A stretch of DNA of 64,000 nucleotides from Sulfurimonas sp. (GTDB lineage: Bacteria; Campylobacterota; Campylobacteria; Campylobacterales; Sulfurimonadaceae), in contig NZ_JAQTLY010000001.1 in the NCBI RefSeq assembly GCF_028714655.1, positions 186,001-250,000 of the forward strand, written 5' to 3'. The notes under the pieces were generated by a model that had not been told where the DNA came from, ran no database searches, and saw only the letters and a list, made by a program, of their open reading frames with translations. Made by a program: the position numbers and the translations under genes. Below are positions 2,885 through 22,248 of the stretch, piece after piece. Each line of letters opens with the position of its first letter. The first letter of the stretch is position 1.

Positions 2885-2973
2885 TTAGACCCTGAATGAC
2901 CAAAGGAAATACCCTTGCGGTACAAGTTCATGGTGACGGGCAGTTCATCATTCCAAGCTTGACTTGGAATCTA
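2885..2973. repeat. Dispersed CCTGAA/TTCCAA-type repeat, decayed copy
   Basis: Intergenic sequence with a degraded form of the element seen better at 20775 and 37517: GACCCTGAATGAC at its left and an inverted repeat ATTCCAAGCTTGACTTGGAAT at its right. The right half forms a hairpin with an ATTCCAAG/CTTGGAAT stem. No coding potential is seen in it. Confidence 0.55.
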
Positions 2974-3050
2974 GTTTATAATTTAATCAGAAGATTCTAT
3001 TAATTAAAATTTTGTATAATACTTTTAATCATACTATTCGGAGTACTATC

Positions 3051-3323
3051 ATGGTTGTTATGGCAAATGAGGTAAAGACAAAAGGGGTTTCTCTCTTTGA
3101 TTCGCTTCTTGAAAAAGCAGAGGAGGTTATCATCAATGTCAGAGGAAAAAACAAGTTTGTAGTTGTTGATATAGAGAGGTACAAAGAGCTTAGAGCGTTG
3201 GAGCTTGATAGAGCGTATCAGGATGCTATGAATGATATAAAAGAGGGAAGATATGAGGTTTTAAGCACAAAAGAGGACTTGGAAGCGTACTTTAAAGAGC
3301 TAGAACATGCGATACAAAATTAG
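3051..3323 (+). CDS. Phd/YefM-type antitoxin
   Basis: A 90-residue protein matching the Phd/YefM antitoxin pattern: an N-terminal domain with LFDSLLEKAEEVIINVRGKN and the typical strand KFVVVDIERYKELR, then an acidic helical tail (EDLEAYFKELE) that would wrap the toxin. The ATG at 3051 is chosen because GGAG at 3040-3043 stands 7 bases upstream; a second in-frame ATG at 3060 is possible. TATAAT at 3015-3020 is a likely -10. The gene overlaps the following toxin gene by 17 bp, the usual arrangement for translational coupling. Antitoxins of this family usually repress their own promoter. Confidence 0.85.
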   Translation: MVVMANEVKTKGVSLFDSLLEKAEEVIINVRGKNKFVVVDIERYKELRALELDRAYQDAMNDIKEGRYEVLSTKEDLEAYFKELEHAIQN

Positions 3324-18782: not shown

Positions 18783-20492
18783 TTGAAAAAAATTTTAAAA
18801 CGCTATATGCCATTTATAAAAGAGTATAAGTTACAATATTTTTTAGTTCTCATCGGCATTATCTTAACTGTAGGTGCGACAACTGCAACGGCTCACATTA
18901 TGAAGCCGCTTATGGATGATATGTTTATAGAAAAAAAAGAGGAGATGCTTTACTATATCCCTCTCGGGCTTGTGGGAATATACTTTTTTAAATCACTCGG
19001 CAGGTATGTGCAGTCTGTTTTTATGAACTATATCGGTCAGCATATTATGACAAGATTTCGCGAAATGCTCTTAGAGAAAATCATCAACCTTGATATGGCG
19101 TTTTTATACCTAAATCGCAGCGGCGAGCTGATTTCCAGAGTTACTAACGATATAGACAGAATCAGATATTTTGTCTCAAATATGCTGCCGGAGCTTTTTC
19201 GCGAGAGCCTAACCGTTATCGCGCTTCTGGGTTATGTTATATATCTAAATCCGGTACTTGCCTTTTACTCTCTTATCGTCCTTCCCGTAGCTGTTTATCC
19301 GATTTTACTAATCGGTAAAAAGCTTAAAAAATATTCGCGCCGCTCTCAAGAGAAAAATGCGGATGTTCTCAGCAGGCTTACCGAAGTTTTCAACAGCAGC
19401 GAAATCATAAAAGCAAATGCGACGCAAAAGTTTGAATTAGGGCGTTTTAGCGTTCAAAACTGGCAGTTTTTCAAGATAAATATGAAGTCCGTTTATGTAG
19501 GAGATATAGTTTCTCCTTTGATGGAAATAGTCGGTGCGATGGGGCTTGCGGCGGTTATTTTTGTGGGTGGGAGAGAAGTCTATAACGGCAATATGAGCGT
19601 GGGTGAGTTTACGGCTTTTATAACTGCAATCGGACTTGTTTTTCAGCCGATTCGCCGTATAGGTTCAATTTATTCAAAGATTCAAGATGCCGTGGCTGCA
19701 AGCGAGAGAGTCTTTGAAATGCTTGATATGCAAAATAAAATTGTTGACGGGGATAAAGTTTTAGAAGAGGATATCAAGCATATAGAGTTTAAAAATGTAA
19801 AACTAAAATATGATGACTCTTATGCTTTAGATGATGTAAGCGTAGATATTAAAGAGGGTCAAAAGATTGCTCTTGTGGGAGACAGCGGCGGCGGGAAAAG
19901 TACATTTATAAATATGCTTCTTCGTTTTTATGACCCACATAACGGTGAAATACTCGTAAACGGCACAAATATAAAAGAGTTTACGCAAGACTCCCTAAAA
20001 GATCATATCTCTTTGGTGACGCAAAGAATTTATATTTTTCAAGATACTCTTGCGGCAAATGTCGCATACGGACAGGAGATTGATGAAGCAAGAGTTAAAA
20101 ATGCGCTTGTTTTGGCAGATGCGTGGAGTTTTGTAGAGTCGCTGGAAGATGGAATAGAGACAAAAATGGAGGAGTTCGGTTCAAACCTTTCAGGCGGACA
20201 GAGGCAAAGAGTGGCAATCGCCAGAGCAATATACAAAGATGCCTCTTTGATACTTTTTGATGAAGCGACATCGGCACTGGATAATGAGAGTGAAAAGAGG
20301 ATTCAGTCCGCTTTAGATGAGTACACAAAAGATAAAATTACTATAACGATTGCTCATAGGCTCAGCACGATAGAGCATGCGGATAAGATTTTGGTTATGC
20401 AAAAGGGCAGGATTATAGCAAGCGGAAAGCATAGCGAACTTTTAGAGAGTTGCGAAGTTTATCAAAGATTAGCGGGAAAACTTAAAGCTTAG
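18783..20492 (+). CDS. msbA: MsbA-like ABC exporter (lipid A/LPS flippase)
   Basis: A 569-residue half-transporter: six membrane segments in residues about 20-310 and an ATPase domain after about 335. It has Walker A GDSGGGKST, the Q loop (VTQRIYIF), signature LSGGQRQRVAIARA, Walker B LILFDEATSALD and switch His (IAHRLSTIEH). Length and features fit MsbA, which flips lipid A-core across the inner membrane as a dimer. The related PglK exporter of N-glycosylation has the same build; location beside the LPS operon favours MsbA. The TTG start at 18783 lies behind GAGTCGGG. Confidence 0.88.
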   Translation: MKKILKRYMPFIKEYKLQYFLVLIGIILTVGATTATAHIMKPLMDDMFIEKKEEMLYYIPLGLVGIYFFKSLGRYVQSVFMNYIGQHIMTRFREMLLEKIINLDMAFLYLNRSGELISRVTNDIDRIRYFVSNMLPELFRESLTVIALLGYVIYLNPVLAFYSLIVLPVAVYPILLIGKKLKKYSRRSQEKNADVLSRLTEVFNSSEIIKANATQKFELGRFSVQNWQFFKINMKSVYVGDIVSPLMEIVGAMGLAAVIFVGGREVYNGNMSVGEFTAFITAIGLVFQPIRRIGSIYSKIQDAVAASERVFEMLDMQNKIVDGDKVLEEDIKHIEFKNVKLKYDDSYALDDVSVDIKEGQKIALVGDSGGGKSTFINMLLRFYDPHNGEILVNGTNIKEFTQDSLKDHISLVTQRIYIFQDTLAANVAYGQEIDEARVKNALVLADAWSFVESLEDGIETKMEEFGSNLSGGQRQRVAIARAIYKDASLILFDEATSALDNESEKRIQSALDEYTKDKITITIAHRLSTIEHADKILVMQKGRIIASGKHSELLESCEVYQRLAGKLKA

Positions 20493-20496
20493 GAGG

Positions 20497-20516
20497 AGGC
20501 ACTCTAAAGAGTGCCT
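20497..20516. terminator. 9-bp-stem hairpin between msbA and the small peptide gene
   Basis: AGGCACTCT (20497-20505) and AGAGTGCCT (20508-20516) form a perfect stem with a 2-base gap. It lies 4 bp after the msbA stop and, on the other strand, 3 bp after the stop of the small peptide ORF. Neither side has a clean T run, so it may be a processing or stability hairpin rather than a true terminator. A GCTTAGG/CCTAAGC outer pair on the minus strand extends it. Confidence 0.5.
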
Positions 20517-20519
20517 AAG

Positions 20520-20579
20520 CTAACATAACCGACTTGCAAAAATGCAAAGTAGAGTTATTGTGAGTATCAGCTTTTCCAT
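20520..20579 (-). CDS. Candidate 19-aa hydrophobic type I toxin-like peptide
   Basis: ATG at 20579 opens a 20-codon frame giving MEKLILTITLLCIFASRLC, a single hydrophobic helix with a basic residue at each end. A strong Shine-Dalgarno (AGGAGGAG, 20594-20587) lies 7 bases upstream, which is rare for chance ORFs this short. The last residues Ala-Ser-Arg-Leu-Cys match the end of the peptide at 60859 (Ala-Glu-Arg-Leu-Tyr). Size and composition are like Ibs and other type I toxins that damage the inner membrane. It lies downstream of a strong promoter and a structured, terminated leader (20681-20612). No homologue was searched; the call rests on sequence pattern. Confidence 0.6.
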   Translation of the reverse strand: MEKLILTITLLCIFASRLC

Positions 20580-20611
20580 TTAAGGACTCCTCCTGTTGGT
20601 TTTTGGAGGGC

Positions 20612-20681
20612 AAAAAAAAAGGTTGAGGCTCATGACTTCCCCAACCTTTGCCGCTCCGTTAAACCAACAAGCGATACTCAC
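20612..20681 (-). ncRNA. Terminated leader RNA complementary to the peptide translation start
   Basis: A transcript from the promoter at 20716-20688 would start near 20681 with GUGAGUAUC. It meets an intrinsic terminator: stem AAGGTTGGGG (20648-20639) with CCTCAACCTT (20628-20619), then nine T (20620-20612). The leader's 5' bases (20682-20673) are complementary over 10 bp to codons 4-7 of the peptide ORF (20559-20568). Bases 20669-20661 are complementary over 9 bp to 20602-20594, next to the Shine-Dalgarno. The RNA could therefore act as an antitoxin in cis or in trans. It lacks SRP and 6S signatures. Confidence 0.55.
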
Positions 20682-20687
20682 AGAAAA

Positions 20688-20716
20688 ATTATAACATAAA
20701 AGGTAAACTTTATCAA
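20688..20716 (-). promoter_or_regulatory. Near-consensus sigma-70 promoter for the leader/peptide transcript
   Basis: On the minus strand TTGATA (20716-20711) and TATAAT (20693-20688) are spaced by 17 bp, one base from full consensus. The predicted start is about 7 bases on, near 20681, exactly at the beginning of the sequence complementary to the peptide ORF. No other gene is within reach of this promoter on that strand except the small peptide ORF. Confidence 0.72.
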
Positions 20717-20774: not shown

Positions 20775-20843
20775 CTAGATTCCGTGCTTGACACGGAATG
20801 ACGGAAAGTTGGTCATCCTGAACTTGATTCAGGATCTAACTAG
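20775..20843. repeat. Dispersed CCTGAA/TTCCAA-type repeat
   Basis: Two adjacent hairpins: ATTCCGTG-CTTGA-CACGGAAT (20779-20799) and ATCCTGAA-CTTGA-TTCAGGAT (20814-20834). CTAGAT begins the unit and ATCTAACTAGAT closes it. The same pair of hairpins with other stem bases occurs at 2885, 37517 and 38121, where the loop CTTGA or its complement is conserved. It sits in front of hemN and holds no coding sequence. Confidence 0.75.
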
Positions 20844-20880
20844 ATAATCGTTCGAAGCTTTATAAAGCGTAAGGATAAAT

Positions 20881-22248
20881 ATGTTAGATTTTGCAAAATT
20901 TACAAAGTACTCAAAACCGGGACCTCGTTATACAAGTTACCCTACGGCGTTAGAGTTTAGCGATACATTCGGGTATGACGAGTATATAAAAAAGTTAGAA
21001 CAACAAGACCCGTCTCGCCCCCTTAGCCTATACTTTCATCTCCCTTTTTGTAAAAATGCATGCTATTTTTGCGGTTGTAATGTCGTCTTTACCTCAAAAG
21101 AGGATAAGATGGTTCGCTACATCGACTACTTAAAAAGAGAGTTAAAAATACTCGCTTCGTATGTAAACTGCTCTCGTAGTGTGATTCAGATGCATTTTGG
21201 CGGAGGAACTCCTACTTTTTTCAATGCCCCGCAATTAGAAGAAGTTATAAAAGAGATTAAATCTTTTTTCCCAAATTTTGTAAAGGATGCCGAGATTAGC
21301 TGCGAGATTGACCCTCGCCATATAAACGAAGATCAGATGAGAGTATTAAGCCAAAACGGTTTTAACCGCGTGAGCTTCGGTTTGCAGGATTTTAACGAAA
21401 AAGTTCAAACTGCCGTTCACAGAATCCAGCCTTACGCTATCACGAAAGAAGCGATGGATTTGGCTAGAAAATATGGTATGCATTCAGTCAATGTCGACCT
21501 TATTTACGGACTTCCGTTTCAAAATTTAGAGACTTTTAAAGAGACTCTTGAGCTAGCCCTTACGCTCAATCCTGACAGATTTGCGGTATTTAACTACGCG
21601 CATGTGCCTTGGATGAAAAAGACTATGCGTAAAATCGATGAGACGACTCTTCCTCTGCCTGACGAGAAGCTCCGTATCATGCAGCATACCATTAACTTTT
21701 TAACTTCCCACGGGTATAAAATGATAGGGATGGATCACTTCGCAAAGCCGGAGGATGAACTTTTCAAGGCGATAGAAAAAGGCGAACTGCATAGAAATTT
21801 TCAAGGCTATACTACAAAAGGCGGGGCTGATTTGGTAGGCGTGGGGCTTACTTCCATCGGTGAGGGAGTAGACTACTACGCTCAAAACACAAAAGAGATG
21901 AGAGAATATGAAGAGGCGATTGATGCCGGCAAACTTCCGTTTGAGCGCGGGATTGCACTAAATCAAGATGACAAGATAAGACAATTCGTAATTATGGAGC
22001 TTATGAGCAACTTCAAGCTTGATATAAAAAGGTTTGAAAAACTCTTTGGCGTTGAGTTTAAAACATATTTTGCGGATGCGATAGAAGCGTTAAAACCTTT
22101 TGAGGATGATGAACTCTTAACGATAAGCGATGATTTTATAGAGTGCAGCCAAACAGGGACGCTGCTTATTAGAAATATTGCGATGCCTTTTGATGCATAT
22201 ATGAAAAAACATGCCGCAAACGCAAAAACATTCTCTAAAACGGTTTGA
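20881..22248 (+). CDS. hemN: Oxygen-independent coproporphyrinogen III oxidase
   Basis: A 455-residue radical-SAM enzyme that decarboxylates two propionate side chains to make protoporphyrinogen IX without oxygen. The iron-sulfur motif is CX3CX2CXC: Cys57, Cys61, Cys64, with Cys66 following (FCKNACYFCGC). Further HemN features are MHFGGGTPTF, EIDPRH, RVSFGLQDFN, VDLIYGLP and the C-terminal HemN domain. HemN-like proteins such as HemW lack the fourth Cys and this length, so it is likely a true HemN. Its TGA stop overlaps the ATG of the next gene, so the two are coupled. Confidence 0.93.
   Translation: MLDFAKFTKYSKPGPRYTSYPTALEFSDTFGYDEYIKKLEQQDPSRPLSLYFHLPFCKNACYFCGCNVVFTSKEDKMVRYIDYLKRELKILASYVNCSRSVIQMHFGGGTPTFFNAPQLEEVIKEIKSFFPNFVKDAEISCEIDPRHINEDQMRVLSQNGFNRVSFGLQDFNEKVQTAVHRIQPYAITKEAMDLARKYGMHSVNVDLIYGLPFQNLETFKETLELALTLNPDRFAVFNYAHVPWMKKTMRKIDETTLPLPDEKLRIMQHTINFLTSHGYKMIGMDHFAKPEDELFKAIEKGELHRNFQGYTTKGGADLVGVGLTSIGEGVDYYAQNTKEMREYEEAIDAGKLPFERGIALNQDDKIRQFVIMELMSNFKLDIKRFEKLFGVEFKTYFADAIEALKPFEDDELLTISDDFIECSQTGTLLIRNIAMPFDAYMKKHAANAKTFSKTV

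Follow-up and report, generated by a model that had tools for sequence, protein, structure and literature searches.

In the present study, a cassette of approximately 210 bp (about 20493-20704, minus strand) was identified in the window, the whole 64-kb stretch of Sulfurimonas DNA that was analysed. The cassette is probably a toxin-antitoxin-like element in which an antitoxin RNA and a toxin mRNA would be made from one promoter on the same strand, with silencing in trans. Its structure, namely a promoter, a terminator and nested pairings, is close to certain, and this layout, the covariation of the pairings and the gain of the cassette at its present site can be documented at the level of sequence. 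Reading the window directly, the order on the minus strand is a sigma-70 promoter, a leader, a U9 terminator, a Shine-Dalgarno sequence (SD), an AUG and a hydrophobic ORF of 19 codons. The cassette is flanked by an ABC-transporter-like gene, the 3' end of which lies at 20492, and by a hemN-like gene starting at 20881, both named from our reading of the ORFs. Its features are as follows.

20688-20716, minus strand: sigma-70 promoter TTGATA-17-TGTTATAAT, matching the consensus at 11 of 12 positions (-35 TTGATA, 17-nt spacer, extended -10 TGT-TATAAT)
20612-20681, minus strand: terminated leader RNA of about 70 nt, putative antitoxin RNA, kept as a unit in relatives; predicted transcription start at G20681
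20673-20681, minus strand: 5' arm of the outer helix, GUGAGUAUC, starting at the predicted first transcribed base (pairing and covariation)
20661-20671, minus strand: 5' arm of stem 2 (predicted fold; G-U pairs on the minus strand in relatives)
20649-20657, minus strand: 5' arm of stem 3, GGAG-C-GGCA (predicted fold and alignment of relatives)
20618-20649, minus strand: terminator hairpin with loop AAGUCAUGAG, which holds the palindrome UCAUGA (20635-20630); the stem covaries
20612-20620, minus strand: U9 tract of the terminator
20605-20612, minus strand: 3' arm of stem 3, UGCCCUCC, transcribed only on readthrough (predicted fold)
20592-20602, minus strand: 3' arm of stem 2, extending into the SD (predicted fold, cognate pairing)
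20587-20594, minus strand: SD AGGAGGAG, which can pair with 20491-20498
20520-20579, minus strand: ORF of the 19-aa hydrophobic peptide MEKLILTITLLCIFASRLC, putative toxin, with its AUG at 20579
20560-20568, minus strand: 3' arm of the outer helix, GAUACUCAC, inside codons 4-7 and in the loop of ORF hairpin 1
20546-20574, minus strand: ORF hairpin 1, AAAG/CUUU in the window member, with covarying pairs in relatives
20535-20547, minus strand: ORF hairpin 2, UUGCA/UGCAA in the window member
20498-20515, minus strand: 3' hairpin past the stop codon
20491-20498, minus strand: anti-SD CUCCUCCU, read by eye in the window member

The initial annotation had described a U9 terminator ending at 20612 and two nested pairings between the leader and the region of the translation start. 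The U9 tract was seen at 20620-20612 when the minus strand was read directly; a simple terminator scan (loops of 3-8 bases) had overlooked this terminator, the loop of which has 10 bases. The outer pairing, described as ten bases long, holds for nine (20681-20673 with 20568-20560), and the tenth, at A20559, would need U20682, which lies before the predicted start. The 9-base block of the second pairing is perfectly complementary as described, UGUUGGUUU (20669-20661) with AAACCAACA (20602-20594), and lies within an 11-bp stem 2. The two pairings are indeed nested and flank the SD (20594-20587) and the AUG (20579). They enclose the terminator hairpin and stem 3 (GGAG.GGCA/UGCCCUCC), a third helix around the terminator which, like the hairpins inside the ORF and the 3' anti-SD, is additional to the earlier description. 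The 192-nt minus strand folds at -77.3 kcal/mol compared with -47.7 (sd 4.2) for shuffled sequences (z = -7.0; none of 200 as good), and the 70-nt leader by itself gives z = -2.0. A leader ORF (GTG at 20681, 33 aa) was given no weight, as several relatives have no GTG at that place.

The cassette belongs to a family. With blastn, two further copies turned up in the genome of the window, and 12 of 99 genomes gave matches, several of them by chance; the long matches share the cassette layout, and the early matches L010, L011, L013 and L014 were discarded as chance. Further searches used a covariance model built from ten members (R1), an ORF-half model (R2) and a leader-half model (R3); these models detect near relatives only. 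Searched by itself, R3 gave matches in 28 of the 135 genus genomes (Sulfurimonas/Sulfuricurvum), and this count is used herein, since the R1 tally of 39/135 includes 11 genomes with a best E of only 0.001-0.01, which were left out. At E 0.01, weak matches included, a genome holds up to nine R1 matches. Pattern matches (39) came from Sulfurimonas, Sulfuricurvum and other Campylobacterales, one being labelled Arcobacter, and diverged members occur outside the own family in a further three families (f4, f9 and f19) of the same order. Among 397 genomes across the phylum, matches at E 1e-4 were confined to this order, and one of them (G359, f14) is chance by sequence. After removal of identical copies, 83 distinct elements were examined in the order, 72 with the ORF and 11 without, the latter including L050 and L107 (no start codon) and L057 (a 14-codon ORF). 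L058 was retained in the counts despite weak helices, L042, L109 and L115 show no U-run in the place searched, and L055 was left out because the inspected stretch missed its match. The weak model matches L059 and L060-L065 were dropped, as the stretches inspected show no cassette layout.

No match was found in phages and plasmids searched with one member as query. The string U9GCCCUCC is carried by 10 viral contigs, and none of the 10 matches the model. Rfam 15 gave no match at the gathering score in the window or in eight loci; one match to a Vibrio sRNA model was rejected as chance (18.7 bits, 80 needed). A literature search, which most subscription papers lay outside, found no paper describing this cassette family. 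The isolate Sulfurimonas indica NW8N carries two intact tandem cassettes about 310 bp apart with different arms. In addition, L043, L098, L100 and L102 form a subfamily in which the third helix is rebuilt (GGGGCUG/CAGUCCC) and an extra stretch follows U9, and this subfamily occupies the same queD-moeA site as ordinary members.

Several lines of evidence indicate that the outer helix and stem 2 are under selection as judged from covariation. First, in 43 members from the genus, the 5' arm pairs with its own codons 4-10 at -14.3 kcal/mol compared with -5.9 for non-cognate partners, the cognate partner being the best in 32/43 and among the top three in 43/43. For stem 2 the values are -15.5 and -6.7 kcal/mol, with the cognate partner best in 24/43 and among the top three in 37/43. 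None of 5000 permutations of partners reached the cognate mean for either pairing, in a test that ignores the relatedness of members. Second, the outer helix at ORF positions +12 to +19 comprises 552 cells, of which 538 hold Watson-Crick pairs, 5 hold G-U pairs and 9 are unpaired; this count covers 69 of the 72 members, leaving out three with helices below 7 bp, and takes the longest helix as the register, which favours Watson-Crick pairs. The outer helix is thereby nearly free of G-U pairs (5/552), unlike stem 2, and the choice of register may contribute to this. Third, the codon second positions +13 and +16 are U in nearly all members, and neighbouring positions show up to four pair types, which indicates that the coding function and the RNA pairing are maintained jointly. 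The prospect that relatives would break the stems without compensation was thus examined with the opposite outcome, and dozens of relatives, through conservation and covariation, support the one-promoter layout of the initial annotation, a terminated short RNA plus a self-masked readthrough mRNA.

Diverged families also have long outer helices of different sequence, e.g. 13 bp in L050, which has no in-frame ATG, and 16 bp in L052. Imperfect members exist as well: the outer helix is weak in L051 and L058, and in L107 it is gone, together with the start codon. When 16 diverged members were compared with one another, the cognate partner was the best for only 6 (outer arm) and 14 (stem 2/3). Among paralogues of one genome (58 members), the cognate sum is -29.7 compared with -12.2 kcal/mol for the others, and only 4 of 124 pairs come within 5 kcal/mol, suggesting that such paralogues are mostly insulated from one another.

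Masking of the translation start also appears to involve the ORF and the 3' end. In RNAalifold of the 3' halves, ORF hairpin 1 is AUAAGC/GCUUAU in most relatives with 97% of cells paired, and its +9/+26 pair is CG in 34, AT in 13, TA in 6 and TG in 4 of 65; its 16-nt loop is the target of the leader 5' end (codons 4-7). ORF hairpin 2 is GUGCA/UGCAC in relatives, 94% paired, with changes from C-G to U-A (RNAalifold and pair counts). At the 3' end, the SD classes covary with their partners in 64 members, GGGAG with CUCCC, GGGGG with CCCCC and part of GGGGA with UCCCC, and cognate SD/anti-SD pairs reach -10.8 compared with -9.0 kcal/mol for non-cognate pairs (none of 5000 permutations). The window member lies outside this pattern count, its pairing of AGGAGGAG with CUCCUCCU being read by eye. 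Past the anti-SD, no U-tract terminator is visible.

The promoter and the strand were considered in all members with the ORF. A -10 box matching at least 5 of 6 positions lies upstream in 72/72 members (and in 48/48 of an earlier set), and no separate sense promoter is conserved between leader and ORF, no internal -10 being common to more than 6/72. The first paired base follows the -10 by 5-7 nt in 64/72, which implies that the 5' end of the RNA itself is probably sealed in pairing. In type I systems, the available text of PMC12390103 places the antitoxin RNA under its own promoter on the opposite strand, in agreement with the initial annotation, which remarked that antitoxins of ordinary type I systems are encoded on the other strand. 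An ordinary type I module here, with an opposite-strand antisense RNA as antitoxin and the leader structure secondary, is very unlikely. It would have a precedent in the same phylum, since Helicobacter has aapA/IsoA with an overlapping antisense antitoxin and 5'-3' pairing of the mRNA (PMC6733600, PMC8322730, in the portions available), and an antisense TAAAAT hexamer lies over the start codon in 22/72 members. However, this hexamer, which is the best antisense -10 by promoter prediction and arises because the spacer is T-rich, is absent in 50/72 and never follows TGn. Antisense -10-like sites occur in 29 of 44 members, fewer than the 36.8 expected from shuffles, and stem 2, which has its G-U pairs on the minus (sense) strand, is more stable than its complement in 41/43. 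The outer helix lacks such a G-U bias (the sense strand is better in 15, equal in 7 and worse in 21 of 43 members) and thus does not by itself tell which strand is RNA. As no antisense -10 box is conserved in or near the ORF among the 72 members, an opposite-strand antitoxin was rejected.

In relatives the peptide has 19-22 aa, with length and hydrophobic pattern kept, and a Pfam scan of four peptides of 20-22 aa gave no match of weight. The U-run is exactly nine in 69/72 elements with the ORF compared with 5/11 without it (Fisher p = 9e-5, related copies not being independent), the other ORF-less elements having runs of 8 (two) or 7 (four). This suggests that the U9 of the terminator belongs to the ORF and that the U-run relaxes once the ORF is lost. 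Even diverged members rich in GC have a run of exactly nine U, and some length variation would be expected of a terminator. The terminator loop holds a 6-nt palindrome in 74 of 83 elements, of at least four kinds (UAAUUA, UCAUGA, UUCGAA and GUUAAC), so two RNAs with the same loop, such as the short RNA and the mRNA, could kiss, and the palindromes suggest kissing or dimerisation.

The two halves of the cassette are also lost unequally. Among 67 ORF-half (R2) matches in the 135 genus genomes, 63 have the leader, and the other four comprise two start-codon-less remnants, one insertion-split element in which the ORF is truncated and one match by chance; a leaderless ORF that is intact and translatable was found in 0/67. 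Conversely, 7 of 70 leader halves (R3, sense) have no adjacent ORF-half match, the insertion-split element among them. Lone leaders without lone intact ORFs fit a dangerous ORF, whether silenced in cis or in trans, but the excess is small (7 compared with 0) and could include ordinary decay. The split element (L103/L176, G131 contig C55, about 2900-3100) is interrupted by a MITE-like insert of about 150 bp with near-perfect 18-bp inverted ends (ACGGTTGATTCATACAAA...).

The cassette has been gained at the window site, as comparison of neighbouring loci indicates. The ABC-hemN spacer lacks the cassette in five near relatives (L182, L184, L185, L187 and L188), in which the distance to a hemN motif is 108-120 nt compared with 433 in the window (21 of 22 loci parsed). 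The surplus in the window includes the cassette and a dispersed-looking repeat, and the -35 of the window cassette falls in sequence also present in some cassette-less relatives. That repeat, at 20779-20850 between the cassette and hemN, is an inverted repeat of ATTCCGTGTCAAGCACGGAAT followed by TGGTCATCCTGAACTTGATTCAGGATCT, and several relatives have spacers too short for it. In L095 the ORF is cut to nine codons and is followed by a similar convergent gene, as judged by eye. Other copies occupy many different sites; one site, between queD-like and moeA-like genes (names by our own reading), is common to eight loci. Such gain and loss at many sites, together with the persistence of leader-only copies, would also be expected if selection acted on the short RNA, or on a miniature mobile element through its DNA hairpin, with the peptide vestigial or non-toxic or the ORF otherwise used, e.g. 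as a small membrane regulator. We consider this improbable, marginally more so than an antisense antitoxin, because the length and hydrophobic pattern of the ORF are kept, U is nearly always found at +13 and +16 along with leader covariation, the SD and anti-SD are maintained, the G-U bias marks stem 2 as RNA, and the U-run relaxes on loss of the ORF.

Herein, we propose a mechanism for the cassette as a toxin-antitoxin-like element. Most transcripts would stop at the U9 terminator, yielding an RNA of about 70 nt with a free 5' arm of about 30 nt, and leaky readthrough would yield an mRNA for a membrane-type peptide of 19 aa. This mRNA would be silent from birth, as its own 5' arm would pair with the pre-SD stretch and codons 4-7, around the SD, so that a ribosome would be unable to load during transcription, and the completed 3' end could then pair with the SD. 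Translation of the peptide could follow if processing took away the 5' arm and the 3' end. The short RNA, which would be abundant and carries the sequence of the lost arm, would then rebind the loop with codons 4-7 and the pre-SD stretch and silence the mRNA in trans. Because the primary mRNA always carries the cis arm, a trans role requires the processing step, which is only assumed. The existence and ratio of the two RNAs, the toxicity of the peptide, the processing and the action in trans are what we infer.

A self-masked mRNA acting in cis only, kept silent by its arm and 3' end, with the terminator lowering its amount and the short RNA as a by-product, is rather unlikely. Every pairing can form in cis, the arm is present on every primary mRNA, and covariation is equally expected and cannot separate cis from trans pairing. 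In addition, SD sequestration of the primary transcript is described as a characteristic trait of mRNAs for type I toxins (PMC6733600, in the portion available). However, masking would need neither palindromic terminator loops (74/83) nor a target displayed on a hairpin nor leader-only remnants, although no single one of these settles the matter. We favour a trans role of the short RNA in our proposed cassette because of the displayed target loop and the palindromic loops, which do not amount to proof. We further suggest, tentatively and at somewhat less than an even chance, that the family is a distinct class of RNA-controlled toxin-antitoxin systems. In this class a leader cut short by termination, the 5' end of the toxin's own mRNA, would act as the antitoxin, with promoter and strand shared by both RNAs, and a fixed U9 terminator would set the dose. 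Recognition would rely on a palindromic kissing loop and a nearly G-U-free helix reaching into the toxin codons, paralogues would be insulated by their own arms, and the class would span at least four families of one order.

Several known systems share parts of this design. Transcription attenuators also have a promoter-proximal intrinsic terminator in a structured leader; the cassette differs in that its predicted fold has no competing antiterminator, stems 2 and 3 closing downstream of, and together with, the terminator hairpin. Ibs of ibs/Sib is a small toxin under RNA control, and folding of the hok mRNA is likewise known. The hok/Sok and tisB/IstR-1 systems are similar in having small toxins under RNA control (PMC4147584, available text), but the antitoxins of all three systems come from their own promoters, opposite or divergent. 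In aapA/IsoA of Helicobacter, a member of the Campylobacterota, the accessible text of PMC6733600 and PMC8322730 describes a tiny hydrophobic peptide in several chromosomal copies and an inert primary mRNA in which long-distance 5'-3' pairing hides the SD, co-transcriptional masking being needed. AapA1 has 30 aa and is countered by a cis-overlapping antisense RNA, whereas the peptide of the cassette has 19-22 aa, its candidate antitoxin is the terminated 5' leader, and no conserved antisense -10 indicates an antisense RNA overlapping the toxin gene.

Type III systems such as ToxIN resemble the cassette in layout, a single transcription unit with the antitoxin RNA first, a Rho-independent terminator and the toxin made by minority readthrough (PMC4147584, PMC8860590, in the portions available), and the terminator halts about 90% of toxIN transcripts according to part of PMC4147584. 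In the cassette, the promoter (72/72), the candidate antitoxin leader, the U-tract before the ORF and the putative toxin likewise form one unit. However, ToxI is a repeat array that binds the ToxN RNase protein, and the toxin of type III is a ToxN-like RNase, whereas the cassette leader has no tandem repeat by eye and is complementary to the mRNA, and the toxin candidate is a membrane-type peptide of 19 aa. With respect to type I systems, the complementarity of antitoxin RNA to toxin mRNA is present, as the leader pairs on both sides of the ribosome-binding site and covaries, and a non-translatable primary transcript with a masked SD is indicated by the predicted fold and the SD/anti-SD covariation. 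Yet no conserved promoter for an antitoxin is predicted on the opposite strand among the 72 members, in which the only conserved promoter, by prediction, is the shared one. In our best reading, the cassette works most like type I with the layout of type III, and we file it under neither.

If this proposal is true, an RNA antitoxin needs neither a gene on the opposite strand nor a promoter of its own, and one promoter and one leaky terminator would encode both partners in about 200 bp. The type I mode of RNA acting on mRNA would be joined to the type III layout, in which the terminator sets the ratio, and one short sequence would serve simultaneously as coding sequence and as the target of an antisense RNA. 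Searches for type I systems that rely on antisense RNAs, e.g. the overlap-based one described in the available text of PMC12390103, would miss such loci. Moreover, the family would offer many natural, mutually insulated RNA pairs for study.
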